From assembly GCF_009908315.1 (NCBI RefSeq), contig NZ_JAAATW010000002.1, positions 434,001 through 498,000 of the forward strand: a stretch of 64,000 nucleotides of DNA, given 5' to 3'. The translations under genes were made by a program, and so were the position numbers. Source of the stretch: Paragemmobacter ruber. GTDB lineage: Bacteria > Pseudomonadota > Alphaproteobacteria > Rhodobacterales > Rhodobacteraceae. The notes under the pieces are model-generated. The model had not been told where the DNA came from, did no database searches, and saw only the letters and a program-made list of their open reading frames with translations. Positions 2,599-47,120 of the stretch are shown one piece after another; the first letter of the stretch is position 1, and the number at the start of each line of letters is the position of its first letter.

Positions 2599-3192
2599 TT
2601 AGCGGCGGCGGTCGCGCCGGGCGCTCATCGGCTGGAAGGCCACGCCGACATGGGCCTCGCAATAGGGTTTGCCGGGCAGCGAGGGCAGGCCGCAGAACCA
2701 GAAATCATCCGTCGCCGGATCACCGATCGGCCATTTGCAGGTGCGTTCCGTCAGTTCCATCAGCGTCAGGCGGCGGGCGCGCTTTTCCACCTCGCGCACG
2801 GAGGCGAGCGCTTCGGGGCTGATCTCGTTGGCCGAGGGCTGCGGTGGCAAGGGCTGGCCTGCCGGAACGATGGCCTTGCGCAGGGGCAGGGGTGTCACGT
2901 TCGACGGCGCGGCGGCGGGTGCGGCGGGGCGTTCCGGCGCGCGGGCGGCCGGTTCGGGCCGTGCGACGGGTTCGGGGCGCGGCTCGGGCTTGGCGCTGGT
3001 GGCGGGGGCGGCGGGGGTGTCGTCCTCATCCTCCTTGCCGCCCGCCACGCGGTTGGACAGGCCAAGGCGGTGGACCTTGCCGATCACGGCGTTGCGCGTG
3101 ACGCCGCCCAGTTCCTTGGCGATCTGGCTGGCCGACTGGCCTTCGGCCCACATGCGCTTGAGCGTCTCGACGCGCTCATCGGTCCAGGACAT
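2599..3192 (-). CDS. gcrA: GcrA cell cycle regulator
   Basis: GcrA binds RNA polymerase sigma-70 and stimulates promoters carrying CcrM-methylated GANTC sites in alphaproteobacteria. The first 47 residues (MSWTDERVETLKRMW..., TRNAVIGKVHRLGLSNR) are the typical GcrA helix-turn-helix. The C-terminal 60 residues carry the conserved TCKWPIGDP...FCG...PYCEAH block. Between them is a Pro/Ala/Arg-rich linker of about 80 residues that makes the protein 197 aa, slightly longer than the Caulobacter protein (about 173 aa). It is convergent with speB and divergent from argD across a 340 bp gap. Confidence 0.95.
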   Translation of the reverse strand: MSWTDERVETLKRMWAEGQSASQIAKELGGVTRNAVIGKVHRLGLSNRVAGGKEDEDDTPAAPATSAKPEPRPEPVARPEPAARAPERPAAPAAAPSNVTPLPLRKAIVPAGQPLPPQPSANEISPEALASVREVEKRARRLTLMELTERTCKWPIGDPATDDFWFCGLPSLPGKPYCEAHVGVAFQPMSARRDRRR

Positions 3193-3532
3193 GGCAACCC
3201 CTTTGGTGGATGGTTCCCCGCCATTCTAGACGGGACGGTGCGGGATACAAGACGGGGCCGCCAAGATCAAGCCGGGCGATCGGGGCGGGGGGCGGGTCCG
3301 GCGTGCCAGCGTGACGGCGGGCGGGCAAGTTCCGCTTTGCAAGGCCGCCGTTTTCGCCTATGACCCCACGCATGAGCCTGTGGACCGCGCCTTTTCCGCC
3401 CACCCGACGCCGACGCTGACCGCGCCGGACGCTCTGATTTGCCCCGTTTCCCTGGGCATCGCCCCTTCCTTTCGTTGACACCCGACCCGCCCGGCCTTTA
3501 CGGCTAGGGTCTTCCCTTCAAGGACCACGCCC
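3193..3532. promoter_or_regulatory. Divergent gcrA/argD intergenic region
   Basis: A 340 bp gap with no convincing gene. For argD, a TTGACA hexamer stands at 3475-3480 with a weak -10 (TACGGC) about 18 bp later, and AAGGA at 3520-3524 serves as ribosome binding site before ATG 3533. No hairpin or known operator is obvious. The -10 assignment is tentative. Confidence 0.35.
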
Positions 3533-4717
3533 ATGATCCCTGCCGTCCTGCCGACCTATAACCGCGCGCCCCTTGCCTTCAGCCACGGCGAAGGGTCCTG
3601 GCTGGTGACCGAGGACGGCCGCCGCTACCTCGATCTTGGCGCGGGGATCGCGGTCAATGCGTTGGGCCATGCCCATCCGGCGCTGGTGGAGGTGCTGGCG
3701 GCGCAGGCGGCGCGGCTGTGGCATGTCTCGAACCTCTACCGCATCCCGGAGCAGGAACGGCTGGCCGAGATGCTGGTGGAACGGACCTTTGCCGATACGG
3801 TGTTCTTCACCAATTCCGGGACGGAGGCGGCGGAACTGGCCATCAAGATGGCGCGCAAATACTGGTACGAGAAGGGCCAGCCCGAGCGGGTGGAGATCCT
3901 GTGTTTCGAGGGCGCCTTCCATGGCCGGTCCACCGGGGCCATCGCGGCGGCGGGGTCGGAGAAGATGGTGAAGGGCTTCGGTCCCCTGATGCCGGGCTTT
4001 GTGCATCTGAAATTCGGCGATCATGATGCCTTGCGCGCGGCGATCGGGCCGCGGACGGCGGCGATCATGGTGGAGCCGGTGCAGGGCGAGGGGGGCATCC
4101 GCGTGCTGCCCGATGCCTGCCTGAAGGGCCTGCGCGACCTGTGCGACGAGAGCGGGGCGCTGATGATCCTTGATGAGGTGCAATGCGGCATGGGGCGGAC
4201 GGGGCGGCTCTTTGCGCATGAATGGTCGGGCGTGGCGCCGGACATCATGATGGTGGCCAAGGGCATCGGTGGGGGCTTCCCGCTGGGTGCGGTGCTGGCG
4301 ACCGAGGCCGCGGCGGCGGGCATGGTGGCGGGAACGCATGGGTCCACCTATGGTGGCAACCCCTTGGGCTGTGCGGTGGGCGCCAAGGTGGTGGAGATCG
4401 TGTCGGAGGACGGCTTTCTGGGCGCGGTGCAGGCCAAGGGCGCGCGCTTCCGGCAGGGGCTGGAGGCGCTGGTCGCCAGCCATCCGGAGGTGTTCGAGGC
4501 GGTGCGCGGGCAGGGGCTGATCCTTGGTCTGAAATGCCGGGTTCCCAATACCGATGTCGTCAAGGCGGCCTATGCCGAAAATCTGCTGACGGTGCCTGCG
4601 GCGGATAACGTGCTGCGCCTTCTGCCGGCGCTCAACATCCCCGACGCCGACATCGCCGAGGCGCTGGCGCGGCTGGACCGGGCGGCCGGACGGGTGAAGG
4701 CCGATGTCGCAGCCTGA
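3533..4717 (+). CDS. argD: Acetylornithine aminotransferase
   Basis: Class III PLP aminotransferase that converts N-acetylglutamate semialdehyde to N-acetylornithine in arginine synthesis; it may also serve as succinyldiaminopimelate aminotransferase in lysine synthesis. The 394 aa protein has the expected [10 protein letters not shown] phosphate-binding loop, DEVQ at 214-217, the PLP lysine K243 in [13 protein letters not shown], and the STYGGNPL motif. ATG 3533 has AAGGA eight bases upstream. Its last 14 bp overlap the following GNAT gene, and argF follows 565 bp later, so this is an argD-GNAT-argF unit. Ornithine and GABA aminotransferases are relatives, but the argF neighbour supports ArgD. 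Confidence 0.92.
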
Positions 4718-5216
4718 GATCTACAGCTTTCCGCGCGTGACCCGCGCGGATTACCCGCTGTTGCGGGGCTGGCTCGCGCAGCCGCATGTGCGGGCGTGGT
4801 GGGGCGACCCGGACGAGGAGATCGCCCTGATCGAGGAAGACATCGACACCGGCCCCACCGACATGCGGCTGGTCGCGCTGGGCGGGCATCCCTTCGCCTA
4901 TGTGCAGGACTATCCCGCCCACCACTGGCCCATGCCGCATTACGCGGATTTTCCGCAGGGCACGCGGGCGGTGGACACCTTCCTTGGCGATCCGGCCTGG
5001 CTGGGGCGGGGCCATGCGCCGCGCTATCTGCGGCAGCGGGCGGTGGCGCTGTTGGCGGCCGGGGCGACGGCCGTGGTGATCGACCCCAGCCCCGACAACG
5101 AGCGCGCCGTGCGGGCCTACCGACGAGCGGGCTTCGTGCCACGCGGCATCGCGCCTTGCGAGGATGGCGATCCGGTCGTGGTGATGGAATACGATCCCGC
5201 CTCTTCATCTTGGTAA
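4704..5216 (+). CDS. GNAT-family N-acetyltransferase
   Basis: A 170 aa acetyltransferase resembling the aminoglycoside 6'-N-acetyltransferase / siderophore-acetylase subfamily: W-x-x-x-P-H-V near residue 25, then [13 protein letters not shown] acetyl-CoA-binding segment near residues 95-107 and the [14 protein letters not shown] motif near residues 130-143. Substrate unknown. The start overlaps the end of argD by 14 bp, which suggests translational coupling. Oddly, the last codons and the TAA stop lie inside a copy of the dispersed CCAAGATGAAG element on the opposite strand (5203-5225), so the element supplies the final four or so residues. Confidence 0.8.
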
Positions 5217-5225
5217 AAATACCCT
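5203..5225 (-). repeat. Dispersed CCAAGATGAAG element, copy 1
   Basis: On the minus strand it reads AGGGTATTTTTACCAAGATGAAG-like; the clear core is GGGTATTTTTACCAAGATGA. It overlaps the stop codon of the upstream GNAT gene and is followed by the GGGGTCCGGGGG flank that is shared with the copy at 52538. Confidence 0.8.
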
Positions 5226-5282
5226 CAAGGGGTCCGGGGGCAGAATGGCCCCGGGGGCTCCATCTCAGAGAAACGGAATGAA

Positions 5283-6209
5283 ATGAAACACTTCCTGGAC
5301 ATCCACAAGACCGACGCCGCCGAGTTGCGTGGGATGATCGACGCCGCCCATGCGATGAAAATCGCCCGCAACGGTCGCCCGCGCGGGGCGCCCGATGACG
5401 AGATGCCGCTCAAGGGCCGGATGGTGGCGCTGATCTTCGAGAAGCCCTCGACCCGCACCCGCGTCTCTTTCGATGTGGGGGTGCGCCAGATGGGCGGCGA
5501 GACGATGGTGCTGTCGGGAAAGGAGATGCAGCTGGGCCATGGCGAGACGATCGCCGATACGGCGCGTGTGCTGTCGCGCTATGTGGACCTGATCATGATC
5601 CGCACCTTCGAGGAGGCGACGCTTCTGGAGATGGCCGAGCATGCCACCGTGCCGGTGATCAATGGGCTGACGAACCGCACCCATCCCTGCCAGATCATGG
5701 CCGATGTGATGACTTATGAGGAACATCGCGGCCCGATCGGGGGCAAGAAGGTGGTGTGGTGCGGGGATGGCAACAATGTCTGTGCCTCTTTCCTGCATGC
5801 GGCGGGGCAGTTCGGGTTCGATTTCACCTTCACCGGGCCGGAACCGCTGGACCCCGAGGAGAAATTCGTGGAATTCGCCCGCGCCAAGGGATCGCGCATC
5901 ACCATCCAGCGCGACCCCTTCACCGCCGTCGAAGGCGCTGATCTTGTGGTGACCGACACATGGGTGTCGATGCACGACCCCGAATCCGCCAAGGAACGCC
6001 GTCACAACCAGTTGCGCCCCTATCAGGTGAACGAACAGCTGATGAGCCGGGCCAAGCCGGATGCGCTGTTCATGCACTGCCTGCCTGCGCATCGCAATGA
6101 CGAGGCCACGAGCGCGGTGATGGACGGCCCCCATTCGGTGATTTTCGACGAGGCCGAGAACCGCCTGCACGCCCAGAAGGCCATCATGCGCTGGTGTCTG
6201 GGGGTGTGA
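5283..6209 (+). CDS. argF: Ornithine carbamoyltransferase
   Basis: Cytoplasmic enzyme that joins ornithine and carbamoyl phosphate to make citrulline. The 308 aa protein carries the carbamoyl-phosphate site STRT at residues 56-59, HPCQ at 134-137, the ornithine-side motif VTDTWVSM near residue 224, and HCLPAH at 265-270. Length and motif order are normal. It follows argD and the GNAT gene on the same strand and is closed by two strong palindromes directly after the stop. Confidence 0.96.
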
Positions 6210-6215
6210 ACCGAC

Positions 6216-6257
6216 AAAAATCTTCGAAGATTTTTGCAAATTTCTTCGAAGAAATTT
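6216..6257. terminator. Tandem perfect palindromes after argF
   Basis: Two adjacent perfect palindromes, AAAAATCTTCGAAGATTTTT (6216-6235) and AAATTTCTTCGAAGAAATTT (6238-6257), both centred on TTCGAA, start seven bases after the argF stop. They can form hairpins on either strand and probably stop argF transcription. Confidence 0.75.
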
Positions 6258-6331
6258 GGTCCTGGCGCCGTGATTGATACGGCGTCGGGAAGGGCAGAGG
6301 CTCCCGTCAAATGCGCTTCTGGGGGCCTTTC

Positions 6332-6706
6332 ATGCATCAGCGTTCCGCTGCCATATGTGACTACGTCCTAGGCAGTTTGTCCACCTTGCTGACCAAGGCC
6401 GAGGCGCATTGCACCGCCAAGGGGATCCAGCCTGAGGCGCTGCTGACCTTCTGGCAGTTTACCGACATGCCACCCTTTGTCCGGCAGGTGCAACTGGCCT
6501 GTGATTTCGCGGCCCGTGCGGCGGCGGGGCGGGCGGCAAAGCGACGGGCGCAACGGATGTCTGGGGAGTGCGCAGTCCACCGCCATGGGGCGGTCACGCG
6601 GCCCGCACTTCAGGCCGAGGTCGGCGCCGGGCGCAGGCTGTCGGCCGAGGCGGTGCGGCCTGCCATCATCGACACGACCACCAGCACCACGGCCAGCGCG
6701 CCATAG
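6332..6706 (+). pseudogene. Truncated DUF1993-like remnant
   Basis: The first 70 or so residues resemble the N-terminal third of DUF1993 proteins: a helix with LSTLLTKAEAHCTAKGI, then ALLTFWQFTDMPPFVRQVQLACDFA, matching the family pattern of 'L..LLDKA.AHA.AK...P..LL..RLAPDM.PL.RQVQIA.D.A'. After about residue 72 the similarity stops, and the frame runs antisense into the 3' end of the MFS gene (6610-6706). Family members are about 170 aa, so most of the domain is missing. An in-frame ATG at 6311 is an alternative start. It may be a decayed gene or simply an untranslated fragment. Confidence 0.5.
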
Positions 6707-7797
6707 GTCAGGCGGAAGCCTGCATGTTCGGCGATGAAACCGATGGCGGAGGGCGCGATGAGGATGCCGGAATAGCCCATCATCGTGACGGCGGCGATGC
6801 CTGCGCCGGGGCTGAGGCCCGGCAGGTTGCCGGCGGCAGAGAACATGATGGGCATCATGTTGGCCACGCCAAGGCCCGCCAGGAAGAAGCCCGCCAGTGC
6901 CATGCCTTCGCCGGGGGCCAGCGCGGCGGCCATCAGGCCGGTCGCGGCCACCAGCCCCGACCAACGCAGGGTGAGGACGGCGCCGAAGCGGTTGCGCACC
7001 CCGTCGCCCAGAAAGCGCATCAGGGCCATGGCGCCCGAGAAGAAGGCGAAGGCGAGGCCGGAGCGCGCCACCTCGGCCCCCAGTTCCTGTCGCAGGTAGA
7101 GCGCGGCCCAGTCCAGCACCGCCCCTTCGGGCACCATGCAGGCCAGCGCAAGGAGGCCGAGGATCCAGACCGATGCCTCGCGCGGCAGCAGGCGGTTGCG
7201 CTGCGGCCTCTCGCCCGGGGCGGGGGCGGGGCGCGGGTCATCGGGCGCAAGGAAGGGCATGGCCACCAGCACGGCCAGCGCCGCGCCGCCTGCGGCCATC
7301 AGAGCTTGCCCTTCGGCCCCGACATGGGCCAGCAGCCAGCCGCCGCCCGCCCCGCCGAGAAAGCCGCCCACACTCCAGAACCCGTGGAGCGAGGACATGA
7401 TGGCCCGGCCCAGCCTGCGCTCGACCTCTACCGCATGGGCGTTCATCACCACGTCCATGGAGCCGAGGGTGGCCCCGAACAGCGCCATGGCGGGGATCAG
7501 AAGCGGCAGGCTGGGGGCAAAGACCACCAGCGGCAAGGCGGGCAAGATGGCCAGCGCAAAGACGCAGAGCACCCGTCGGGCCCCGAAGATCTCGATCAGG
7601 CGGCCCGCGAAGATCATGGACCCCACCGCACCCGCGCCGAGGACAAGGATCAGAAGGCCGAGGACACCTTCGGTGATGTCATGCCGGGGCAGGAGGAGGG
7701 GGATCTGCGGCGCCCATGCCCCCATGACGAAGCCATTGGCAAGGAACATGGCCGAGACGGCCCAACGGCCGCGGCGGGTGGTGTGCAGATCGGTCAT
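6610..7797 (-). CDS. MFS transporter (YbjJ/AraJ-like)
   Basis: A 395 aa inner-membrane protein with about 12 hydrophobic helices. The N-terminus has the pattern seen in YbjJ-type transporters (SAMFLANGFVMGAWAPQIPLL) followed by the MFS loop GRLIEIFGARRV. Substrate unknown. It stands alone on the minus strand, and its start faces a 260 bp gap holding three short palindromes. The 3' end overlaps the DUF1993 remnant on the other strand. Confidence 0.8.
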   Translation of the reverse strand: MTDLHTTRRGRWAVSAMFLANGFVMGAWAPQIPLLLPRHDITEGVLGLLILVLGAGAVGSMIFAGRLIEIFGARRVLCVFALAILPALPLVVFAPSLPLLIPAMALFGATLGSMDVVMNAHAVEVERRLGRAIMSSLHGFWSVGGFLGGAGGGWLLAHVGAEGQALMAAGGAALAVLVAMPFLAPDDPRPAPAPGERPQRNRLLPREASVWILGLLALACMVPEGAVLDWAALYLRQELGAEVARSGLAFAFFSGAMALMRFLGDGVRNRFGAVLTLRWSGLVAATGLMAAALAPGEGMALAGFFLAGLGVANMMPIMFSAAGNLPGLSPGAGIAAVTMMGYSGILIAPSAIGFIAEHAGFRLTYGALAVVLVVVSMMAGRTASADSLRPAPTSA

Positions 7798-7903
7798 CGC
7801 AAGGCTCCGCTTGGCATGGGCGTTCCATAGGCGGGACGCGGGCCGGGGGGAAGGGGGCGGCGTTGACGTTTCGTTACAGCGGGTGTCAGACCGCGGGGGG
7901 GCG

Positions 7904-7999
7904 CGAATTTTCTGCGAAAATTCGAAAACCAGAGAGGCTTTGCGAATGTCCTGCGAAAATTCGGGATGGGAAGGGGGGCGAATTTCCTGCGAAAATTCG
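7904..7999. repeat. Three-copy array of CTGCGAAAATTCG palindromes
   Basis: Three near-identical palindromes follow each other at a spacing of 36-39 bp: 7904-7924 (CGAATTT-TCTGC-GAAAATTCG), 7943-7963 (one arm altered, CGAATGTC) and 7979-7999 (CGAATTTCCTGC-GAAAATTCG). They lie between the start of the MFS gene and the stop of hrpB, both on the minus strand. The same core occurs at 2506-2524 and inside the hairpin at 13441. Confidence 0.75.
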
Positions 8000-8057
8000 G
8001 GTTATCCGTTTGCGCGCGACGGAACGTCGCCGATCTTTCGGAGGAGAATCGCCCCTG

Positions 8058-10505
<2,448 letters not shown>

Positions 10506-37973: not shown

Positions 37974-38933
37974 TCAGCGGGTGAACCACGGGGCGAGATT
38001 GGCGCGCACGCGCGCGAGGGGGGTGTCGCCGGAGGTGTCGGGGGTGAAGGTCTGGCCGGTGATCGCCTGATAGGCGTCGATATAGACCTGCGCGGTGTGC
38101 TGGATCATTTCCTGAGGGATTTCAGGGATTTCGTCCTTGTAGGGGTCGCAGCGGGCGGCGACCCAGGCGCGGATCACGTCCTTGTCGAAGGAGGGGGGGC
38201 GGGTGCCGTTGTCAAAAGCGGCGGCGTAGCCGGAGGCGAGCCAGTAGCGGCTGGAATCGGGGGTGTGGATTTCGTCGGCGAGCAAGATGGTTCCGTCCGC
38301 GTCGGTGCCGAATTCGTATTTGGTATCCACGAGGATCAGGCCGCGTTCTGCCGCCATCTGTTGGCCGCGCGCAAAGAGGGCGAGGGCCTTGGCGGAGACC
38401 TCATCCCATTGGGATTGGGTGAGAAGTCCTTGGGAAACAATGTCTTGGGCGGTCAGTGGTTCGTCATGGCCGCCATCGAAGGCCTTGGAGGTGGGGGTGA
38501 TGATGGGGGCGGGGAGGGCCTGATTGTCGCGCAGGCCATCTGGCAGGGTGTGGCCGTACATGGCGCGCTGGCCCTGTTTGTAGAGCGTCAGGATCGAGGT
38601 GCCGGTGGTGCCGGCAAGGTAGCCGCGCACGACGATTTCGACGGGCAGGATGGTGAGCCGCTTGCCGATGACGACATTGGGATCGGGGTAGGAGATCACG
38701 TGGTTGGGGCAGATGTCGGCGGTGTGTTCGAACCAGAATTTCGCGGTCTGGGTCAGGACTTGGCCCTTGAAGGGGATGGCGGCGAGGATGCGGTCGAAGG
38801 CGGAGATGCGGTCGGATGAGATGAGGATGCGGGTGCCGTCGGGCAGGTCATAGCAATCGCGGACCTTGCCGAAATAGGGGTTGGGAAGTTCGGGGATATG
38901 CGCCTGCGCGAGGGTGCGGGTGAGGTCGGTCAT
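37974..38933 (-). CDS. purC: Phosphoribosylaminoimidazole-succinocarboxamide synthase (SAICAR synthetase)
   Basis: ATP-dependent ligase in step eight of IMP synthesis: joins aspartate to CAIR. The 319 aa length is the long (yeast/plant-like) form found in many alphaproteobacteria. Visible motifs are [27 protein letters not shown] near residues 22-48, VVRGYLAGT near 105, [15 protein letters not shown] near 220 and [10 protein letters not shown] near 248. ATG 38933 is chosen over an upstream in-frame ATG because the extra residues are Pro-rich. It stands alone on the minus strand. Confidence 0.95.
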
Positions 38934-39168: not shown

Positions 39169-39217
39169 GCCGATTTCTGCACGCAGAAATCGGCGCGGAA
39201 ACTGCGTCAGTTTCCGC
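39169..39217 (-). terminator. Double hairpin closing the telA cluster
   Basis: Two perfect hairpins follow one another: GCCGATTTCTGC/GCAGAAATCGGC (39169-39194) and GCGGAAACTG/CAGTTTCCGC (39195-39217), just 1 bp after the zinc-ribbon gene stop on the minus strand. It matches the tandem-palindrome style seen after argF. Confidence 0.75.
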
Positions 39218-39218
39218 C

Positions 39219-40307
39219 CTAGCGGGTTTGCGTGACAGTGAGCACGATGCCCGCCACGATCAGCGCGGCGAGGATTGCGAAGGCGATCTTCCACGCGCTG
39301 TAGGGCCGTTCGCCCTGCACCTTGCCGGTCTGGCCGTTCACCACGAAGCGGTAGCTTTTGCCGTTATACTTGTAGGCGGCCATCCAGATGGGCAGGAGGA
39401 CGTGCTTGAAGGTTTCGTCCTTCCAATCCGTCTCGATCCGGTCGATGCGCTGTTCATCGCCGCCGATATCGGCGCGGACATCGCTTTTGATCACGCCCGC
39501 CATCACGTCGCGCCCCATGGCGTGGCCGTCTGCCAGGGACACGGTGTAGCCTTCGGCGGTGAAGCCCGCGAGGTAATCGTCGCGCCAGGGCTGCAGGGCG
39601 GAAAGATCCCATGGTTGCAGATTGTCGGTGTAGTGGCGCGGCAGGCTGGTGCTGGCGAGGACCAGCACATCGTCGAAGCGCCGCGCGACCCAGCCCGAGC
39701 GGGCGGACCAGCGGGTTTTGCGGACCTGTTCGGTGGTCGTCTTGCCGTCGCGCGTGACGGTGCGGGATTCGTAATAGTGATCGCCGCGGGCGCCTGCGTA
39801 ATGCGAGCGGGTGGCGGCGTCGAAGGTCCAGAAGGGGACGTAGAGGCCGTTCAGCGTGCGGCCCTTGCGGGCGTATTCCTGCAATCCGTTCGGGGCGAAC
39901 CAGAGGCTGCCCAGCCAGTTCGTCATCGCCTCGCGCGCCTGTCCTTCGTTCAGGGCGAAGGGCATCACGGCTTGCGGCTTGATCCGGCGTTCCTCGCCCG
40001 TGCCGATGGAGACGGGGGTGGCGCAGAAGGGACATTCGGTGGCATGGGTCGCGCCCTGAAACTCCACCTGCGCGCCGCAGGAGGGGCAGGGGGTGATGCG
40101 GACCTGTTCCATCTGGGCGGGCGGCAGATCGTCGGACAGGCCGAGGGCAAGGTCGATCTCGTTCAGGGAACGGCGGCGGGCGGCGGGGGCGTCGGGGATG
40201 GCCTGACGGGCACCGCAATGGTCACAGACAAGCTCGGTCGCGCCGGGCTCAAAGCGGAGATCGGCCCCGCAGGTGTTGCAGGGCCAGTTCTTGCGTTCGT
40301 CGAGCAT
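39219..40307 (-). CDS. Zinc-ribbon membrane protein (TFIIB-type zinc finger)
   Basis: A 362 aa protein. The N-terminus has two to three zinc ribbons: C10-xx-C13 paired with CDHC near residue 28, and CPSC near 73 paired with CPFC near 92. A long middle part (residues 110-320) has a conserved look (FALNEGQAREAMTNWLGSLWFAP, LPIWMAAYKYNGKSYRFVVNGQTGKVQGERPYS), and a single membrane helix ends it (IAFAILAALIVAGIVLTV). It starts 3 bp after the SPFH/GYF gene and is the last gene of the cluster. Function unknown; proteins of this form travel with SPFH/virion-core-like genes. Confidence 0.75.
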   Translation of the reverse strand: MLDERKNWPCNTCGADLRFEPGATELVCDHCGARQAIPDAPAARRRSLNEIDLALGLSDDLPPAQMEQVRITPCPSCGAQVEFQGATHATECPFCATPVSIGTGEERRIKPQAVMPFALNEGQAREAMTNWLGSLWFAPNGLQEYARKGRTLNGLYVPFWTFDAATRSHYAGARGDHYYESRTVTRDGKTTTEQVRKTRWSARSGWVARRFDDVLVLASTSLPRHYTDNLQPWDLSALQPWRDDYLAGFTAEGYTVSLADGHAMGRDVMAGVIKSDVRADIGGDEQRIDRIETDWKDETFKHVLLPIWMAAYKYNGKSYRFVVNGQTGKVQGERPYSAWKIAFAILAALIVAGIVLTVTQTR

Positions 40308-40310
40308 GGA

Positions 40311-41420
40311 TCAGGCCCCGGGCGGCGGTGGTGGGGGCATTTGGGTGAAGAGGCGGGCGAGATCGGTCTCGGCCGCGGGTTTCCAGCCATCCATCCCGGC
40401 GGTCCAGACCTGCGTGGCGCGGGTGAGGGCGCCCGAGGTGACCATGGCGGTGAGGTCGGCATCAGAGAAGGGGCCTTTGGTCGCGCCGTTTTCGGCGATG
40501 TGCCAGGCCCTGCCTGCGGGCGGCGGGGGCGGAGGCGGCGGGGCGGCGGCGGCGGCCGGGGAGGCGCCCGCAGAAGCGCCCCACGGCCCCATGTTCTGGG
40601 CCATTGCCATGCCCATGGCGGCACCCATGCCCGCGGTCATGGCATCGCCGGCAGAGCCGGGTTTGCCCATCGCCTCGGCCGCGGAGAACTGCATGTATTT
40701 GTTGAGGTCCCCCGCGATGCCTACGGAGGTGCGCTTGTCCAGCGCCTTTTCCACCTCTTCGGGCAGCGAGATGTTTTCGATGTAGAATTCGGGCAGGGTC
40801 AGGCCGTAATTCGCCACGAGGGGCGCGATGGCGGTGGTCACCAGCTTGCCCAGATCGGCGGTGTTGGCGGCCATGTCGAGCACGGGGATGCCGGAGGAGG
40901 CGATCACGCGGGAGAATTCCTGCACGATGATGTTGCGGATCTGGAAGCTGATCTCATCGGCGGTGAATTCACCATCGGTGCCGACGATTTCCTGCATGAA
41001 TTTCGCCGGGTCGCCCACGCGCATTGCATAGGTGCCGAAGGCGCGCAGGCGGACGGGGCCGAATTCCGGGTCACGCGCCATGATGGGGTTCTTGGTGCCC
41101 CATTTCAGATCGTTGAAGCGGGTGGTGGAGATGAAATAGACCTCGGCCTTGAAGGGCGAGTTGAAGCCGTGATCCCAGTGCTGGAGCGTGGTCATCACCG
41201 GCATGTTGTTGGTCTCAAGCATGTAGAGGCCGGGGCCGAAGACATCGGCCAGTTGGCCTTCGTGGATGAAGACCGCGGCCTGCCCCTCGCGCACCGTCAG
41301 CTTGGCGCCGTACTTGATCGCGTTGCCGCGGCGTTCAAAGCGCCACACCATCGTGTCGCGGCTGTCATCGGTCCAGTCGATGACGTCGATGAATTCGCCC
41401 TTGAGGAAATCGAAGACCAT
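40311..41420 (-). CDS. SPFH/Band 7 protein with C-terminal GYF_2 domain
   Basis: A 369 aa protein. Residues 1 to about 235 form an SPFH (Band 7-like, 'virion core protein' YdjL type) domain: TMVWRFERRGNAIKYGAKLTVREGQAAVFIHEGQLADVFGPG and EFTADEISFQIRNIIVQEFSRVI. A Gly/Ala/Met-rich linker and a run of prolines follow, then a GYF_2 domain near residues 300-350 (WHIAENGATKGPFSDADLTAMVTSGAL...VWTAGMDGWK). It lacks a clear membrane helix. SPFH proteins form membrane-associated scaffolds; the GYF_2 domain binds Pro-rich partners. It is translationally linked to the zinc-ribbon gene (3 bp gap). Confidence 0.88.
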   Translation of the reverse strand: MVFDFLKGEFIDVIDWTDDSRDTMVWRFERRGNAIKYGAKLTVREGQAAVFIHEGQLADVFGPGLYMLETNNMPVMTTLQHWDHGFNSPFKAEVYFISTTRFNDLKWGTKNPIMARDPEFGPVRLRAFGTYAMRVGDPAKFMQEIVGTDGEFTADEISFQIRNIIVQEFSRVIASSGIPVLDMAANTADLGKLVTTAIAPLVANYGLTLPEFYIENISLPEEVEKALDKRTSVGIAGDLNKYMQFSAAEAMGKPGSAGDAMTAGMGAAMGMAMAQNMGPWGASAGASPAAAAAPPPPPPPPAGRAWHIAENGATKGPFSDADLTAMVTSGALTRATQVWTAGMDGWKPAAETDLARLFTQMPPPPPPGA

Positions 41421-41458
41421 GCCGAACTCTCCCTAACCTGTGCGCCGCGGCGTCTGGA

Positions 41459-42400
41459 TCAAGTTTCGCCGCCCACCAGCCTTGCCGCAAGCGATTCCAC
41501 GATGGGCCTTGCCTCGGCCTCGGTCATGCCGGGGCGGAGGGCGGGGTTGTAGAGCATCCGCAGCATGAGTTCGTCTTGCCGGGTCAGCAGGGCGAACTCC
41601 TCGTCATCGTTGAAGATGGAGGGGCGGGCGGTGGGGCTGTCATTGGCGAGGCCGAGCCCTTGGGCGATTTCCTCATGCAGGCAGGAGAGGCGGAGGAGAT
41701 CGGGGTGTTCGGCGCGGATCACGGCGAAGGCGCGGGTATAGGTGGCGCCGTCGCCCGCCGACATGGCGTAGACGAGGCAATAGGTGGAGCGCGGCATGTC
41801 GGTGATGGCGGCGACCTCGGAGCCCGACAGGCCGGGGAGGGCGCTGCGGATCTGGGGGCCGAGCGCGCGGCGTTCATCTTCGCTGACGATATGGACGAAG
41901 AAGTTGGGCGCGCGGTCATCCAGGCCAATGGGATGGCCCGTGACACGGGAGAGGCGTTGCAGGAAGGAGGCGACGCGGGCGGTATCGGCTGCGCGGCGGT
42001 CAGGCGGGGTGGCCGCGCCGAAGCGGAGGCCCACGCGGACCGGGGCCTGCCATTTGCGGATGCGGCTGGTGGTCATGCGCTGGACGGGGCCTGCGGAGGT
42101 GCGGGCGTATTCGTCATAGAGCGCGATGCGGATGAAGTTTTCGGCCAGCATCCGGTCGGTGAAGGGGGTGTCGCGGCCGCCGCCATCGGTGCGCAAGAGG
42201 CCCTGGGCCAGAAGCTGGGCCTGAACGCGGGCGTAATAGGCGCGCGCCGCCTGCGAGGCGGGGGTTTCCACAGCGGCGCTGTCGGGGGCCACGACCGGGG
42301 GCGGCGCGGCGGGGCTGGGCGCGCGGGGGGGGGTGGCGGTCGGGGTGCAGGCGGTGATCCCTGCCAGCGCGATGGCGGCGAGGGTCTTGGGGAAGGTCAT
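41459..42400 (-). CDS. DUF2927 lipoprotein, degenerate zincin-like
   Basis: A 313 aa protein. Lipobox near residues 15-18 (ITAC, Cys18), then a Pro/Ala-rich spacer to about residue 50. The core has the DUF2927 pattern: PVRVGLRFG, a central HIVSEDERRAL, and CLHEEIAQGLGLANDSPTARPSIFNDDEEFALLT near residues 240-275. The HEEIAQ site looks like HExxH with Gln replacing the second His, so metal hydrolysis may be lost or altered. Lies 33 bp after telA on the same strand and 38 bp before the SPFH gene. Confidence 0.8.
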   Translation of the reverse strand: MTFPKTLAAIALAGITACTPTATPPRAPSPAAPPPVVAPDSAAVETPASQAARAYYARVQAQLLAQGLLRTDGGGRDTPFTDRMLAENFIRIALYDEYARTSAGPVQRMTTSRIRKWQAPVRVGLRFGAATPPDRRAADTARVASFLQRLSRVTGHPIGLDDRAPNFFVHIVSEDERRALGPQIRSALPGLSGSEVAAITDMPRSTYCLVYAMSAGDGATYTRAFAVIRAEHPDLLRLSCLHEEIAQGLGLANDSPTARPSIFNDDEEFALLTRQDELMLRMLYNPALRPGMTEAEARPIVESLAARLVGGET

Positions 42401-42433
42401 GTGCGGTGGCCGATACAGGCTGGAGGGGTGGGT

Positions 42434-43615
42434 TCAGGGTGCGGGTGATGCGGGGGGCGTCTGGGTGCTGCGCGCCCGCGCGGCGGCGAGGGTGTCGCGG
42501 AGGTTGGCCTCCATCGTCTGCAGTTCCGCCTCGGCGGCGGCGCGGCGCGACTTGCCCTCATCGGCGATGCGGAGGCTGTCCTCGATCGTGGCGATCAGGG
42601 TTTCATTGGCGGCGCGGACGGATTCGATGTCGAAGACGCCGCGTTCCATTTCCTCGCGCACGGTGCGGTTGGCCTCAGCCAGGTTTTCGGCGTTCGACTT
42701 GAGCAGTTCGTTGGTCAGATCGTTCGCCTCGCGCACGGCTTCGGCCGCTTCTTTGCTGCGCTGGATGGTGACGGCCTGGGCGAGCTGGGTTTCCCAGAGC
42801 GGCACGGTGTTGACGAGGGTGGAGTTGATCTTGGTGACAAGGCTCTTGTCGTTTTCCTGCACGAGGCGGATCGAGGGGAGCGACTGCATGGTGACCTGAC
42901 GGGTGAGTTTCAGGTCATGCACCCGGCGTTCCAGATCATCGCGCGCGGCGCGCAGGTCGCGCAGTTCCTGGGCGACCTTGACCTTGTCCATCTCGGGCGC
43001 GGCGGCGACGGCGGCCTCTTTCGCGGGGATGTCGGTGGCGTCGGTCTGGGCGAGCTTCGCCTCGCCCGCGGCGATGTAGAGGGCGAGTTCATCGTAGAAG
43101 CGCAGCGTCTTTTCGTAGAGGAGATCGAGCGACTTGATATCCTTGAGAAGCACGTGTTCGTGCTTGAGCAGGTTTTCGGTGATGCGGTCGATCTGCGACT
43201 GCACCTCTTCGTAGCGGGCCACGAATTTGGCGATGGGGGCGGCCTGACCGGTGAGCTTGTCCCACCAACTGCGTTCGCGGCTGACGTCCAGTTCTTCGGA
43301 GGCGAAGCCGCGGATGGTGGTGACGATTTCGCGCAGGGCGTCGCCTGCGGGACCCACATCCTTGTTCTTCACGCCGGCCAGCATGTCCTGCGAGATGACC
43401 TGAAGTTCGGCCTGCGCGGCGGAGCCGAAGGCGATGATGGACTGGGTGTTGTGGAGGTCCACCTCGGCCATGCGTTTGCGGATTTCTTCGGCCTTGTCGG
43501 CGGGGGCGGCATCGAGCGGCAGGATTTCCGCAACCGGTACGGGCAGGACCTGACGGGTGAGCGCTTCAACCTCGGCCAGGGCCTTGGCGGCGTCTTCACG
43601 AACGGTGGTGGCCAT
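42434..43615 (-). CDS. telA: Toxic anion resistance protein TelA
   Basis: A 393 aa TelA/YaaN-family protein, the usual length. It is almost all helical with long coiled coils; family features are DYLFGTENIADKF-like replaced by YEEVQSQIDRITENLLKHEHVLLKDI in the middle, a PSIRLVQENDKSLVTKINSTLVNTVPLWETQLAQAV motif and NAENLAEANRTVREEMERGVFDIESVRAANE near the end. TelA members are linked to tellurite or toxic-anion resistance and travel with xpaC. ATG 43615. A low-complexity Pro/Ser/Thr tail ends the protein. Exact activity unknown. Confidence 0.88.
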   Translation of the reverse strand: MATTVREDAAKALAEVEALTRQVLPVPVAEILPLDAAPADKAEEIRKRMAEVDLHNTQSIIAFGSAAQAELQVISQDMLAGVKNKDVGPAGDALREIVTTIRGFASEELDVSRERSWWDKLTGQAAPIAKFVARYEEVQSQIDRITENLLKHEHVLLKDIKSLDLLYEKTLRFYDELALYIAAGEAKLAQTDATDIPAKEAAVAAAPEMDKVKVAQELRDLRAARDDLERRVHDLKLTRQVTMQSLPSIRLVQENDKSLVTKINSTLVNTVPLWETQLAQAVTIQRSKEAAEAVREANDLTNELLKSNAENLAEANRTVREEMERGVFDIESVRAANETLIATIEDSLRIADEGKSRRAAAEAELQTMEANLRDTLAAARARSTQTPPASPAP

Positions 43616-43796
43616 GGGGGGCTTTCCTTGTTGCTCGCGGCTGGGTCTTGCAGCGCACTGGTTATGAAATGGGTGGGGCCTTTCTGATGCGCGCAGGTTG
43701 GCCCAGCTTGGCCGGATTTTCCAGTGTGGTTTTGCAGATGCGGCGCAGAAAAGCAGCTTGACGCCGGGGCAGGTTGCGGGGCGCCCGCGCGGGGGA

Positions 43797-44618
43797 TCAC
43801 GGCGTGGGGTAGGGGGCGGCGGTGGCCCGTGGCGGTGCGGGGGAGAGGGAGGTGTCGCGGGCGGTGCCGGGGCCAGTGCCGAGGGCGGTTTCGGGCAGCG
43901 GGGCGGGCGGAGGGGCGAAGTGGGAGAGGCGGGTGGTGACGCGGGCCAGCGCCTCGGTCAGCGCGGCTGTCTGTGCGGCGGTCTTCTCGGACGGGCGGGC
44001 GGGATCGGCGGCGGCGAGGTGTTGCAGGCGCAGCGCTTCGGCGGCATCGGCCAAGGCAGGCAGCCAGAGGGTGAGGGCGTGGGCGGCCTCGGGCGGTGGA
44101 GGGGGGGCGGAGGGTTCTGCGAGGGTGAGCGCGGCGCGGCGCAGGGCGCAGGCGGCGCGGTGGAGGTGGGGATCGCGGCAGGGGGCAAGGGCGCGGATCA
44201 GCCGGGCAAGGTGCGTCGCGGTGGTCGCGGCGATTCGGTCGGCATCCGGGGCGGGTGCGGGATGGGGGGGCGTACTGGCGCCCGCGGTGGCGGGTGTGGC
44301 GGGCCAGACGGCGAGGAGGTGGAGCAGCCCCGCCAGCGCGCCGCAGAGCAGGGCGGCGGGCAGATCGGCGCTGCCTTGGGCCAGCGCCGCACCGAGGCTG
44401 AGGCCCATGAGCGCCGACAGAAGCGGCGGCAGCGCCCAGAGCAGGCGGGTGCCGGGCAGGTAGGGGCGCAGGCCGGTGACGAGCGTCCATGTCAGCGACG
44501 CGGCCCCTGCCAGCGCGAGCAGCAGGCCGAGGATCACCAGACCGAAATCCGCCCCGACGACCACAAGGCCAAGGCCGAGGCCGAAGAGGGCGGCAAGGGT
44601 GAAGATCGTTGTCTTCAT
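43797..44618 (-). CDS. Membrane protein of the xpaC-telA cluster
   Basis: A 273 aa protein that I cannot place in a family. Four hydrophobic stretches fill residues 1 to about 110 (LGLGLVVVGADFGLVILGLLLALAGAA, LLWALPPLLSALMGLSLGAALAQ, ALLCGALAGLLHLLAVWP). The C-terminal half (120-273) is an Ala/Leu/Pro-rich helical region and tail. The layout, membrane helices then a helical cytoplasmic part, is like that of XpaC, and it sits between xpaC and telA. ATG 44618 is preferred; the open frame runs further up but is not gene-like. Confidence 0.65.
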   Translation of the reverse strand: MKTTIFTLAALFGLGLGLVVVGADFGLVILGLLLALAGAASLTWTLVTGLRPYLPGTRLLWALPPLLSALMGLSLGAALAQGSADLPAALLCGALAGLLHLLAVWPATPATAGASTPPHPAPAPDADRIAATTATHLARLIRALAPCRDPHLHRAACALRRAALTLAEPSAPPPPPEAAHALTLWLPALADAAEALRLQHLAAADPARPSEKTAAQTAALTEALARVTTRLSHFAPPPAPLPETALGTGPGTARDTSLSPAPPRATAAPYPTP

Positions 44619-44787
44619 GTGGCGCGGACCCGTTTGGACCTGCACAGCATGGCCTGACCGCATGGCGGCAATGGGGCGCGGGGGGGGCGCGGGGGTGATG
44701 CGCTGCGGGCTTTTCTGTGGGTGTGACCGGGCAGGGCGGGGGGCAAATCGCCCGGTCGGGGCGGGGGGCGCCGCTTGTGTCCGGCGG

Positions 44788-45684
44788 TCAGTGGTCGCGC
44801 TGGAGCCTTTCGCGCAGGACGCCGATTTCGACATCGAGATCGGTGCGGTTGTCGCTGAGCAAGGCCTGCGTGCGCGCGGCGAAGTTGGTTTCGAGATCGG
44901 TCAGCAGCGCCTCGTATTCGGTGCGGGCGGCGGGGTCGCGGTTCTGGCGGTAGAGGTCGGCGAACTTCACCGTCGCGTCACGGGCGCCTGTCAGGTAGAC
45001 GGACAGATATTTGCGGGCGGCGGTCAGGTCGCGGGGATCGCCTTCAATCGTGCGGAACATGGCGCGGGCGGTGGTGGCGAAGCGGTCTACCCGCGCTTCG
45101 AGCGCGCGGTCGCCTGCGCGCAGGATGGCGTCTTTCATGCCCGTGAGCAGTTTTTCAGCCTCGTCCACGGCGCGGGCGACGCGGTCGGTCTGGAAGGTGT
45201 CGATCCCTTCCGTCCCCTTGTCGCGCAGCGGATCGGGGCCGAAGGCGGCCAGATGCAGAAGCGCGCCTGCGATGGCGAAACCGACGGGGATGAGGCCCGG
45301 CTGGGTGATGGAGGCCGCGAGCGCGAGGGCGGCGCCGGTCAGGACCGAGGCGAAGATCTTGCGCGGGATGGCGGGGCGGCGGGCGATGCGGCGGTCATCG
45401 TATTCCTGATGCGCGCGGGTGCCTTCGCGCGTGAGCCATGCGGCAAGGAGCATGAGCGCGGTGGCGCCTAGGCCCGCAAAGAGCGCATCCGGCCCGCCGG
45501 TGAAGGCGGGGACGAGCAGGGTGAGCGAGACGAGGAAGAAGATGTTGACGCGCGCCCCGGCGCGGTGGGGGCGTTTACCATCAAAGCGGTGCGGGGCGGG
45601 CGTGGTGCCGGAGGCCAGCGTCTTGCCCGGATCGCCACGGCCTTCGCCGGTGGGGCTGTATTTTCCGCCGTAGCGCTGGGCCAT
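44788..45684 (-). CDS. xpaC: XpaC-like (5-bromo-4-chloroindolyl phosphate hydrolysis) protein
   Basis: A 298 aa membrane protein of the XpaC family. A soluble N-terminus (1-46) is followed by four membrane helices between about residues 47 and 150 (IFFLVSLTLLVPAFTG, LGATALMLLAAWLT, FASVLTGAALALAASI, PVGFAIAGALLHLAAFG), then a long helical part with DRVARAVDEAEKLLTGMKDAI. XpaC occurs with TelA in many bacteria; the reaction named in its label is an old indirect result. The 27-codon ORF ends 1 bp before its ATG. Confidence 0.85.
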   Translation of the reverse strand: MAQRYGGKYSPTGEGRGDPGKTLASGTTPAPHRFDGKRPHRAGARVNIFFLVSLTLLVPAFTGGPDALFAGLGATALMLLAAWLTREGTRAHQEYDDRRIARRPAIPRKIFASVLTGAALALAASITQPGLIPVGFAIAGALLHLAAFGPDPLRDKGTEGIDTFQTDRVARAVDEAEKLLTGMKDAILRAGDRALEARVDRFATTARAMFRTIEGDPRDLTAARKYLSVYLTGARDATVKFADLYRQNRDPAARTEYEALLTDLETNFAARTQALLSDNRTDLDVEIGVLRERLQRDH

Positions 45685-45685
45685 G

Positions 45686-45769
45686 TCACTGCACCCCGCT
45701 GGCGGCGGTGTAGAGGATCAGCGCGACCAGAACGCAGAAGGAGAGGGTCTGCAATCCGGTGCCCGACAT
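45686..45769 (-). CDS. Possible 27-aa membrane peptide upstream of xpaC
   Basis: A 28-codon frame including stop. It starts MSGTGLQTL, then a hydrophobic stretch (SFCVLVALILYTAA) and ends SGVQ. GGGGGA stands about seven bases before the ATG, and its TGA is one base from the xpaC ATG, so the two would be translationally coupled. It may encode a small single-pass membrane peptide or only serve as a leader ORF. The chance that such a short frame arises by accident is not small. Confidence 0.45.
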   Translation of the reverse strand: MSGTGLQTLSFCVLVALILYTAASGVQ

Positions 45770-45845
45770 GAACCATCCCCCTGCGCTGTAGTCGCCATGG
45801 CGGGACTATAGGCGAAGGGGGGATGGCGCGGCAATGGGGCTGGGC

Positions 45846-47120
45846 CTAGCGCGGGCGGCGCGGTGGTTGACCCGGACGGGAGGGCGAAGAGGGGCCGGAT
45901 TTGGGGCCTTTGGCCGGGGCGCTGCTGCGGGGGGCGGGTTTGCCGGGCGCGGCGGGGGTTGCGGGTTTGGGCGTGGGGGTGCTGCGTGCGGTGAAGCGGG
46001 CCGGGGACTTGCCGGGTGTGGCGGCGGGTTTGGCGCCTTTTGCCGGGGCGGTGGCGCGCGAGGCGGGTTTGCCGGGGGTAGCGGTTTGCGCGGGCTTCGC
46101 CGGGGGGGCGCTGCGTGCGCTGGGCTTGGCCGGGAACTTGCCGGGGGTTTTGCCGGGGGTGGCGGCGGGTTTGGCGCTGGTGCGGCGGGTGGCGGGCGCC
46201 TCGATCAGGGTGGCACCGCGCGGGGGGGTGATGCGGGAGGGGGCGGCGCTGGCAGGTTTGCTGCGGGCGGGGGATTTGGTCGCGGTTTGCGCTGGGGCGG
46301 GGCTGCGCGTGGGTTTGCGGGTGGGGCTGCGGTCTTCGCGGCCGTCGGCATCGGTGCCGGTCAGGCCCAGTTGATCGCGCAGGACCTTGGGGCGGACCTC
46401 TTCCACCTCGCCGGGTTGCAATTCGTTGAGGCGGAAGGGGCCGTAGCTGATGCGGATCAGGCGGTTCACGGTCAGGTCGATGGCGGCCATGGCGCGGCGG
46501 ATCTCGCGGTTCTTGCCTTCGCGCAGGCCCACGGTCAGCCAGGCATTGGCGCCCTGGTGGCGGTCGAGCTTAACCTCCATCGGCTGGAAGCGTTCGCCGT
46601 CGATGGTGATGCCCTTGCGGAGCGGTTCGAGATCGGGATCGGTCGGGTTGCCCTTCACCCGCACGCGGTATTTGCGCAACCAGCCGGTGGAGGGAAGTTC
46701 GAGGCGGCGCTTGAGTTCGCCGTCATTGGTGAGCAGGAGCAGGCCTTCGGAATTGAGGTCGAGACGGCCCACCGACATGACGCGGGGCATGTCCTCTGGC
46801 AGGTGGTCGAAGACGGTGTCGCGGCCCTTTTCATCGGCGGCGGAGGTCACCAGACCTTCGGGTTTGTAATAGAGCCAGAGGCGCGGGGGTTCGGGCGGGG
46901 CGAGGGGCTGGCCGTTGACCGTGATGCGGTCCTTGGGGGACACGTTGAGGGCGGGGCTGTCGATGACCTTGCCGTTCACCGCCACCTCGCCTGCGGCGAT
47001 CATGCGTTCCGCCTCGCGCCGGGAGGCGATGCCGGCGCGGGAGAGCACCTTGGCGATGCGGTCGCCGTCGGGGGCGGCTTTGGTGGGGGCTTTCGCGGGG
47101 GCTTTCGGCGGGCGGGTCAT
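45846..47120 (-). CDS. rluB: 23S rRNA pseudouridine synthase (RluB/RsuA family) with long tail
   Basis: A 424 aa protein. Residues 18 to about 68 hold an S4 domain (DRIAKVLSRAGIASRREAERMI), and the synthase domain follows with the GRLDLNSEGLLLLTND motif near residue 118 (catalytic Asp in GRLDLNS) and KNREIRRAM near 200. The body ends at about residue 255. The remaining 165 or so residues are a low-complexity Ala/Pro/Lys/Ser/Thr tail with repeated 'AATPGK' and 'PAKPS' blocks, longer than typical. RluB modifies 23S U2605 in E. coli; RsuA-type 16S modification is an alternative. It is divergent from tadA. Confidence 0.88.
   Translation of the reverse strand: MTRPPKAPAKAPTKAAPDGDRIAKVLSRAGIASRREAERMIAAGEVAVNGKVIDSPALNVSPKDRITVNGQPLAPPEPPRLWLYYKPEGLVTSAADEKGRDTVFDHLPEDMPRVMSVGRLDLNSEGLLLLTNDGELKRRLELPSTGWLRKYRVRVKGNPTDPDLEPLRKGITIDGERFQPMEVKLDRHQGANAWLTVGLREGKNREIRRAMAAIDLTVNRLIRISYGPFRLNELQPGEVEEVRPKVLRDQLGLTGTDADGREDRSPTRKPTRSPAPAQTATKSPARSKPASAAPSRITPPRGATLIEAPATRRTSAKPAATPGKTPGKFPAKPSARSAPPAKPAQTATPGKPASRATAPAKGAKPAATPGKSPARFTARSTPTPKPATPAAPGKPAPRSSAPAKGPKSGPSSPSRPGQPPRRPR

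Follow-up and report, generated by a model that had tools for sequence, protein, structure and literature searches.

The window analyzed here, a 64,000-nucleotide stretch of the Paragemmobacter ruber genome (contig NZ_JAAATW010000002.1, positions 434,001 to 498,000), carries on its minus strand, between positions 39219 and 45769, a cluster of seven genes that raises a simple question: do an XpaC-TelA pair and an SPFH protein with its zinc-ribbon partner, standing together with a DUF2927 protein, form one membrane-stress system, or are they neighbors with separate jobs? As judged from the list of open reading frames (ORFs) and from Pfam, the cluster is transcribed in the order mini-protein gene, xpaC, second XpaC-type gene, telA, DUF2927 gene, SPFH-GYF_2 gene and zinc-protein gene. 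An initial annotation of this DNA had proposed a single membrane-stress machine for six of these genes while stating that the joined set has no described function, and our literature search likewise found no study treating TelA, XpaC and SPFH together. We argue, at a probability of roughly one half, that this is a conserved membrane-stress cluster of the Rhodobacteraceae, in which XpaC-TelA is joined with SPFH and a membrane-anchored zinc-ribbon partner through a scaffold mechanism.

Results

Among 149 genomes of the family, TelA was detected in 133, SPFH (PF13421) in 134, one of them by a weak partial match, and DUF2927 in 142. The presence or absence of TelA and that of SPFH coincide in 147 of the 149, with 132 genomes having both, 15 having neither and one each having either alone (Fisher p = 1.7e-18; Fisher p values here ignore relatedness). 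In this count, the weak partial SPFH match of genome G200 was taken as absent, and an SPFH fragment at a contig end (G263) as well as two TelA fragments (G273, G288) were taken as present. All five core genes (xpaC-telA-DUF2927-SPFH-zinc) lie on one strand within 20 kb at 54 of 61 family TelA loci, which represent 60 of the 133 TelA-positive genomes (upper score list, some short-contig genomes skipped) plus G022; two of the remaining seven loci are without DUF2927, and five are split or cut by contig ends. A named collection, comprising the best 80 of 572 loci and thus leaning to close relatives and possibly overlapping the other genome set, gave a complete cluster in 66 of the 69 loci with enough flank, the incomplete ones being L272, L289 (whose SPFH and zinc genes lie on the opposite strand) and L343. 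The joined order exceeds chance, and the family-wide cluster is real.

The union of TelA with SPFH is mainly alphaproteobacterial, and the joined set is found mainly in the Rhodobacteraceae. In a class sample of 142 genomes, for which only matches above 100 bits were counted (7 of the 18 SPFH matches over the cut-off and 11 of the 12 TelA matches), all seven strong SPFH carriers have TelA, itself present in 11 of the 142 (p = 1.7e-9, or 3.0e-7 without the own family); two of the seven belong to the own family, and one, G012, has SPFH and TelA 129 kb apart. The arrangement xpaC-telA-SPFH-zinc without DUF2927 occurs in four other alphaproteobacterial families (L128, L129, L130 and L137), and DUF2927 probably joined the cluster in the Rhodobacteraceae. 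A 1.46-Mb Paracoccus plasmid bears telA, DUF2927, SPFH and zinc genes together, with no xpaC match in that stretch. It is the only one with TelA among 25 SPFH stretches taken from a phylum sample and from plasmids (L207-L231), in which a strong zinc match adjoins SPFH in 15 cases, a weak one in seven and none in three. One of these stretches, a Vibrio coralliilyticus plasmid (L227), has its SPFH-zinc pair at 2700-10136, with no TelA nearby, beside opposite-strand genes annotated as TIR-domain and TRAFs-binding.

Several observations weigh against a single system. Order alone is weak evidence, since 50 of the 61 family TelA loci likewise retain rluB, an unrelated housekeeping gene, on the upstream side, so that inherited order explains part of the neighborhood. 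In four split genomes (L141, L143, L144 and L145), SPFH and zinc genes are paired away from telA; three genomes of the own genus (L166/L167, L170 and L171) have xpaC by rluB but not next to telA; and no xpaC lies within 7 kb of telA in Tabrizicola sp. TH137 (L272), the closest named relative, whose TelA is the best named match at 88% identity. Among the 284 genomes outside the family in the phylum sample of 299, SPFH occurs in 21 (eight of them from one genus), TelA in 29 and both in five (p = 0.049). The predicted TelA model resembles no specific known fold in a structure comparison, and our literature search found no experiment on the cluster in Rhodobacteraceae. Finally, PspA (PF04012), which is without a match in 121 of the 149 family genomes, our own included, is accompanied by TelA in 22 of the 25 family genomes above its cut-off. 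A strict replacement of PspA by TelA is therefore unsupported by phylogeny, as the genomes with PspA mostly keep TelA.

The kept rluB, the separate SPFH-zinc pairs of the split genomes and, outside the family, the weak co-occurrence and the SPFH-zinc pairs without TelA in the stretch fetched would all be accounted for if XpaC-TelA and SPFH-zinc ribbon were two independent modules that have their own jobs and are neighbors by inherited order, with DUF2927 as a bystander. However, the joint absence of TelA and SPFH from 15 family genomes, with only two genomes discordant, and the four-gene block on the large Paracoccus plasmid do not follow from inherited order, and the presence of TelA in every strong SPFH carrier of the class sample also speaks against independence. 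We consider two independent modules rather doubtful and prefer a single membrane-stress cluster. The initial annotation had named homologues regularly found apart as one outcome that would count against joint function: within the family this is not the pattern, and a survey of the neighborhood, which it had also suggested, recovers the core genes together; farther away it is the pattern, most SPFH carriers being without TelA.

How, then, could the SPFH protein be linked to its partners? It has no hydrophobic segment, and it carries a GYF_2 domain followed by a proline-rich C-terminal tail. All 64 family orthologues have a PPP run within their final 20 residues, and the GYF_2 core was recognized in 60 of the 64 (by pattern only, the other four not being profile-checked). 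In the stretches L207-L231 the two features go together: the tail is present in 11 of 11 SPFH proteins with GYF_2 (one being Paracoccus, L228) and absent from 13 of the 14 without GYF_2, the exception (L212) being split over two frames. The simplest reading would be that GYF_2 binds the proline tail of a neighboring SPFH subunit; the likely ligand of this bacterial GYF_2 is thus the tail of the same protein. The GYF literature, among the matches listed, is eukaryotic work, and a search of the GYF_2 end against the PDB gave a weak match to AgmX (7z3c, E 0.13).

The initial annotation had instead cast GYF_2 as an adaptor facing the proline-rich tails of the membrane protein, TelA and DUF2927, and this part did not survive. 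PPP runs occur in 2 of 67 XpaC, 0 of 72 TelA, 15 of 61 DUF2927 and 15 of 64 zinc proteins. TelA of the window does end in a proline-containing tail (TPPASPAP), but PPP, PPxP or PxPP is found within the last 40 residues of only 1 of 72 TelA orthologues. Binding of GYF_2 to TelA or DUF2927 was rejected: the proline runs of TelA are not conserved, and DUF2927, as a predicted lipoprotein, would be separated by the membrane from an SPFH protein that has no hydrophobic segment.

The 27-residue ORF at the 5' end lies inside the range covered by the initial annotation, which did not name it, and is, judged by its sequence conservation, a seventh gene of the cluster. In 61 of 62 family loci, all but L080, a hydrophobic mini-ORF of about 27 to 29 codons, for which a longer start is possible in some cases, ends no more than 4 nt from where xpaC begins; the same scan 5' of the other genes gave 1 of 72 for telA, 0 of 61 for DUF2927, 0 of 64 for SPFH and 3 of 64 for the zinc gene. 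Among loci of the named collection that have a strong xpaC, its profile matches in 69 of 77, and within the own genus it matches in all 15 loci; a crude count over 22 members puts the ratio of nonsynonymous to synonymous polymorphism (pN/pS) at about 0.48. Where xpaC and telA are not neighbors (L166, L170, L171), the mini-ORF is still found with xpaC, and its product is likely to be a small partner or subunit of XpaC. It has no match to any Pfam or NCBIfam model. Similar frames 5' of xpaC in the non-family loci L128 and L131 are not alike in sequence and were taken as chance.

The second XpaC-type protein has no Pfam match at all and is not above the curated cut-off of PF10112. In a profile-profile comparison it nevertheless aligned with XpaC (hhalign probability 98.2, E 5.6e-14), and for its relatives in L162-165 and L168 direct matches to the xpaC profile were obtained at 37-84 bits. 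What had been described as a second membrane protein of similar layout thus keeps its layout and gains an identity, that of a diverged XpaC paralogue. It occurs in 5 of the 19 genomes of the genus, our own included, and a copy that has diverged further exists in L168, so that the paralogue is probably a young accessory copy. The window has xpaC and telA on the same strand with this paralogue between them, and the xpaC-telA gap is at most 150 bp in 59 of the 61 sampled family loci. An extra xpaC (178-229 bits) stands upstream of the main one in L095, L097, L098, L103, L113 and L123, at a site different from that of the second copy in the window. In a fourth genome of the genus, L169, xpaC lies beyond the zinc gene in opposite orientation.

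Metzincins are marked by the motif HExxHxxGxxH and by a Met-turn. DUF2927 is predicted to have a fold like that of matrix metalloproteases, which belong to this class, with all three zinc ligands replaced (AlphaFold model, structure comparison): the HExxHxxGxxH/D motif is lacking, E, Q and N stand in place of the ligands in 59 of 62 sequences, and the ligands are gone in both subfamilies seen. The Met-turn Met is lacking too, and a conserved PSIFND is found at that spacing, as judged by eye. The assignment of E243 to the position of the first His was read from the spacing and the aligned end points rather than from a residue-by-residue superposition. When the DUF2927 sequence profile was compared with PDB sequences, none of the seven matches obtained at E 10 or below (best 0.39) was a metalloprotease, so that the fold claim is based on the AlphaFold model together with the spacing of the motif. 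A role as an active zinc protease was rejected, since the ligands are lacking in both subfamilies. A loose lipobox pattern in 50 of 62 orthologues and two invariant cysteines suggest that DUF2927 is probably a lipoprotein on the periplasmic side, outside the cytoplasm. Our literature search found no study of DUF2927. Frames of a longer subfamily, 450-650 codons, occur at second DUF2927 loci (L258, L262 and others), with a TPR match in L258, and near them a gene of VWA/CoxE-type appearance was recognized by eye.

TelA is predicted to be all-helical (predicted local distance difference test, pLDDT, 78), and in a PHROGs scan it matches the phage family phrog_5890. In a paper on jumbo phages, TelA is grouped with Ter components that form sub-membrane structures and is proposed to help exclude superinfecting phage (PMC7824862). 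Together with the family name of TelA, this grouping could mean that the cluster is a tellurite/oxyanion or Ter-type xenobiotic resistance unit, in which sub-membrane structures of TelA block toxic anions. A Listeria telA mutant is indeed 2-fold more sensitive to tellurite, but it is also 4-fold more sensitive to nisin, which points to the envelope (Collins 2010, as cited in PMC12791056). Moreover, no Ter family is among the Pfam matches of the cluster proteins, the rest of the genome not having been searched for TerB, TerC or TerD, and TelA is near-universal in the family. A resistance unit of this kind appears improbable to us. Defence genes are usually patchy in distribution, and the near-universality of TelA (133 of 149) is likewise unlike what an anti-phage system would lead one to expect. 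For such a system speak the proposed exclusion of superinfecting phage and the phrog_5890 match; among the seven proteins, however, PADLOC matches were obtained for the zinc protein alone, both weak (E 0.078 and 0.37). We regard anti-phage defence as most improbable.

Eight cysteines are conserved in the zinc protein and form four CXXC knuckles, hence two ribbons and not the four of the initial annotation, whose single membrane helix was borne out. In 18 of 56 family loci (among them L070, L099, L103, L112 and L124), the SPFH and zinc genes have between them, on the same strand, a gene for a cytochrome b561-type membrane protein (PF01292 matched in three of three tested), which is absent from the window.

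Along the direction of transcription the seven genes (Table 1) are separated by 1, 169, 181, 33, 38 and 3 bp, the 5' part being looser (169 bp between xpaC and the second copy, 181 bp between the latter and telA) than the part that runs from telA to DUF2927 (33 bp), to SPFH (38 bp) and to the zinc gene (3 bp). Promoter-like sites of the kind found at the 5' end number two in the region against 0.4 expected from shuffles, and represent a consensus match only. The double hairpin after the last stop folds at -35.3 kcal/mol (z -4.2), and none of 200 shuffles was equally good. It is not followed by a T run and a terminator scan made no call, so that a terminator role is a guess. Six genes on one strand, the three short gaps, the double hairpin and the identities of XpaC, TelA, DUF2927 and SPFH with GYF_2 had all been reported before; ORFs and strand, re-measured gaps, shuffles and Pfam matches above cut-off agree with that report. 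The cluster is flanked by rluB upstream (45846-47120) and purC downstream (37974-38930); purC was matched in one of the first 80 loci and in most same-genus loci long enough to span it.

Table 1. Features of the Paragemmobacter ruber cluster, in window coordinates.
Feature	Position	Strand	Remarks
Promoter-like site, TTGCCG-18-TATAGT	45805..45834	-	Directly 5' of mini-protein gene; 9 of 12 consensus matches
Mini-protein gene	45686..45769	-	27 residues, one membrane helix; stop 1 nt 5' of xpaC start
xpaC	44788..45684	-	XpaC-like membrane protein (PF10112), 298 residues; E 1.2e-26, 94 bits (cut-off 29.8)
Second, diverged XpaC paralogue	43797..44618	-	273 residues; without Pfam match; hhalign to XpaC
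telA	42434..43615	-	393 residues, predicted all-helical; PF05816, E 4e-104, 349 bits (cut-off 30)
DUF2927 gene	41459..42400	-	PF11150, 219 bits; predicted lipoprotein, 313 residues, predicted matrix-metalloprotease-like fold
DUF2927 motif E243-E244-x-x-Q247-x-x-G250-L-x-N253-D254	41639..41674	-	Alignment; spacing of metzincin HExxHxxGxxH
SPFH-GYF_2 gene	40311..41420	-	369 residues; SPFH (PF13421), E 2.9e-103, 344 bits; C-terminal GYF_2 (PF14237), E 4.6e-18, 65 bits
GYF_2 domain of SPFH protein	40368..40505	-	Residues 306-351; Pfam
PPPPPP C-terminal tail of SPFH protein	40320..40337	-	P362, P363, P364 and P366 invariant in 15 sequences
Zinc-protein gene	39219..40307	-	362 residues; two ribbons, large conserved domain, one C-terminal membrane helix; ORF translation and alignment
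First terminal hairpin	39195..39217	-	10-bp arms, perfect; 3' of last stop
Second terminal hairpin	39169..39194	-	12-bp arms, perfect; 3' of last stop

Discussion

Both halves of the cluster have counterparts in envelope-stress regulons of Firmicutes. In the sigma-W regulon of B. subtilis, xpaC-yaaN belongs to the "core" and pspA-ydjGHI to the "secondary" genes (PMC3498285). The SPFH protein YdjI and the membrane proteins YdjG and YdjH are required for recruitment of PspA to the membrane (PMC8581546), YdjG being a zinc-ribbon membrane protein and YdjI a band 7 protein (PMC9239133). In L. lactis, the CesSR envelope-stress regulon includes the XpaC/TelA1 genes, and when both were deleted, growth under membrane-protein overproduction was partly impaired (PMC3139573). 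Tolerance of envelope antibiotics has been linked to TelA and XpaC, and the mechanism of TelA is still called unknown in a 2026 paper (PMC12791056). With both modules in such regulons and PspA missing here, the economical reading would be that the SPFH-zinc platform serves TelA.

The membrane-stress cluster that we favor could then work as follows. The tail-anchored zinc protein would hold SPFH subunits at the inner membrane, where GYF_2 of one subunit would grip the proline tail of the next, building a lattice beneath the membrane. TelA, as a long-helix protein, would be attracted both by this lattice and by XpaC and would stabilize damaged membrane, thereby taking the place that PspA has with YdjGHI in B. 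subtilis. The 27-residue protein would serve as a small XpaC subunit, and the DUF2927 lipoprotein would watch the periplasmic side through a protease-like fold without zinc ligands. We infer every protein contact in this scheme, as well as the stress role. Of the one-machine idea of the initial annotation, the co-occurrence and the Firmicutes stress regulons thus favor the core, and the GYF_2 adaptor has been dropped.

In its most extended form, the scheme would amount to a trans-envelope stress machine in which TelA instead of PspA is the client of the SPFH/zinc platform, SPFH subunits are chained by GYF_2 and proline tails, the 27-residue protein is an unrecognized XpaC subunit, and DUF2927, with E, Q and N for the zinc histidines of a metzincin fold, acts as a periplasmic peptide sensor or a non-zinc enzyme. 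We think it unlikely that all these elements apply together.

The cluster suggests a concrete, testable mechanism for TelA/XpaC, namely that PspA may not be the sole client of SPFH platforms. What is new here is a predicted fold for DUF2927, a likely ligand for a bacterial GYF_2 domain and an extra small gene outside Pfam and NCBIfam.

Comparison with known systems places these elements. Like pspA-ydjGHI of B. subtilis, where PF13421 also matches, the cluster combines an SPFH protein without a membrane span with a zinc-ribbon membrane protein; the zinc protein shares the anatomy of YdjG, a likeness by description and not by sequence comparison. Unlike pspA-ydjGHI, it is without PspA, its SPFH protein has GYF_2 and a proline tail, and XpaC-TelA and DUF2927 are joined to it. 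With xpaC-yaaN, L. lactis llmg_1115-1116 and L. monocytogenes lmo1966-1967 it shares the order XpaC then TelA and the link to envelope stress; in the available parts of the reports on these operons no SPFH or zinc gene is named, whereas the Rhodobacteraceae add SPFH and zinc genes 3' and the mini-protein gene 5'. DUF2927 is like matrix metalloproteases and other metzincins in its predicted fold and unlike them in having E, Q and N for the zinc histidines and no Met-turn Met. The cluster is a variant of known envelope-stress modules, which run separately elsewhere and are joined here, mostly without PspA, with three additions: the mini-protein, a putative self-link of GYF_2 to the proline tail, and a predicted zinc-less metzincin fold.

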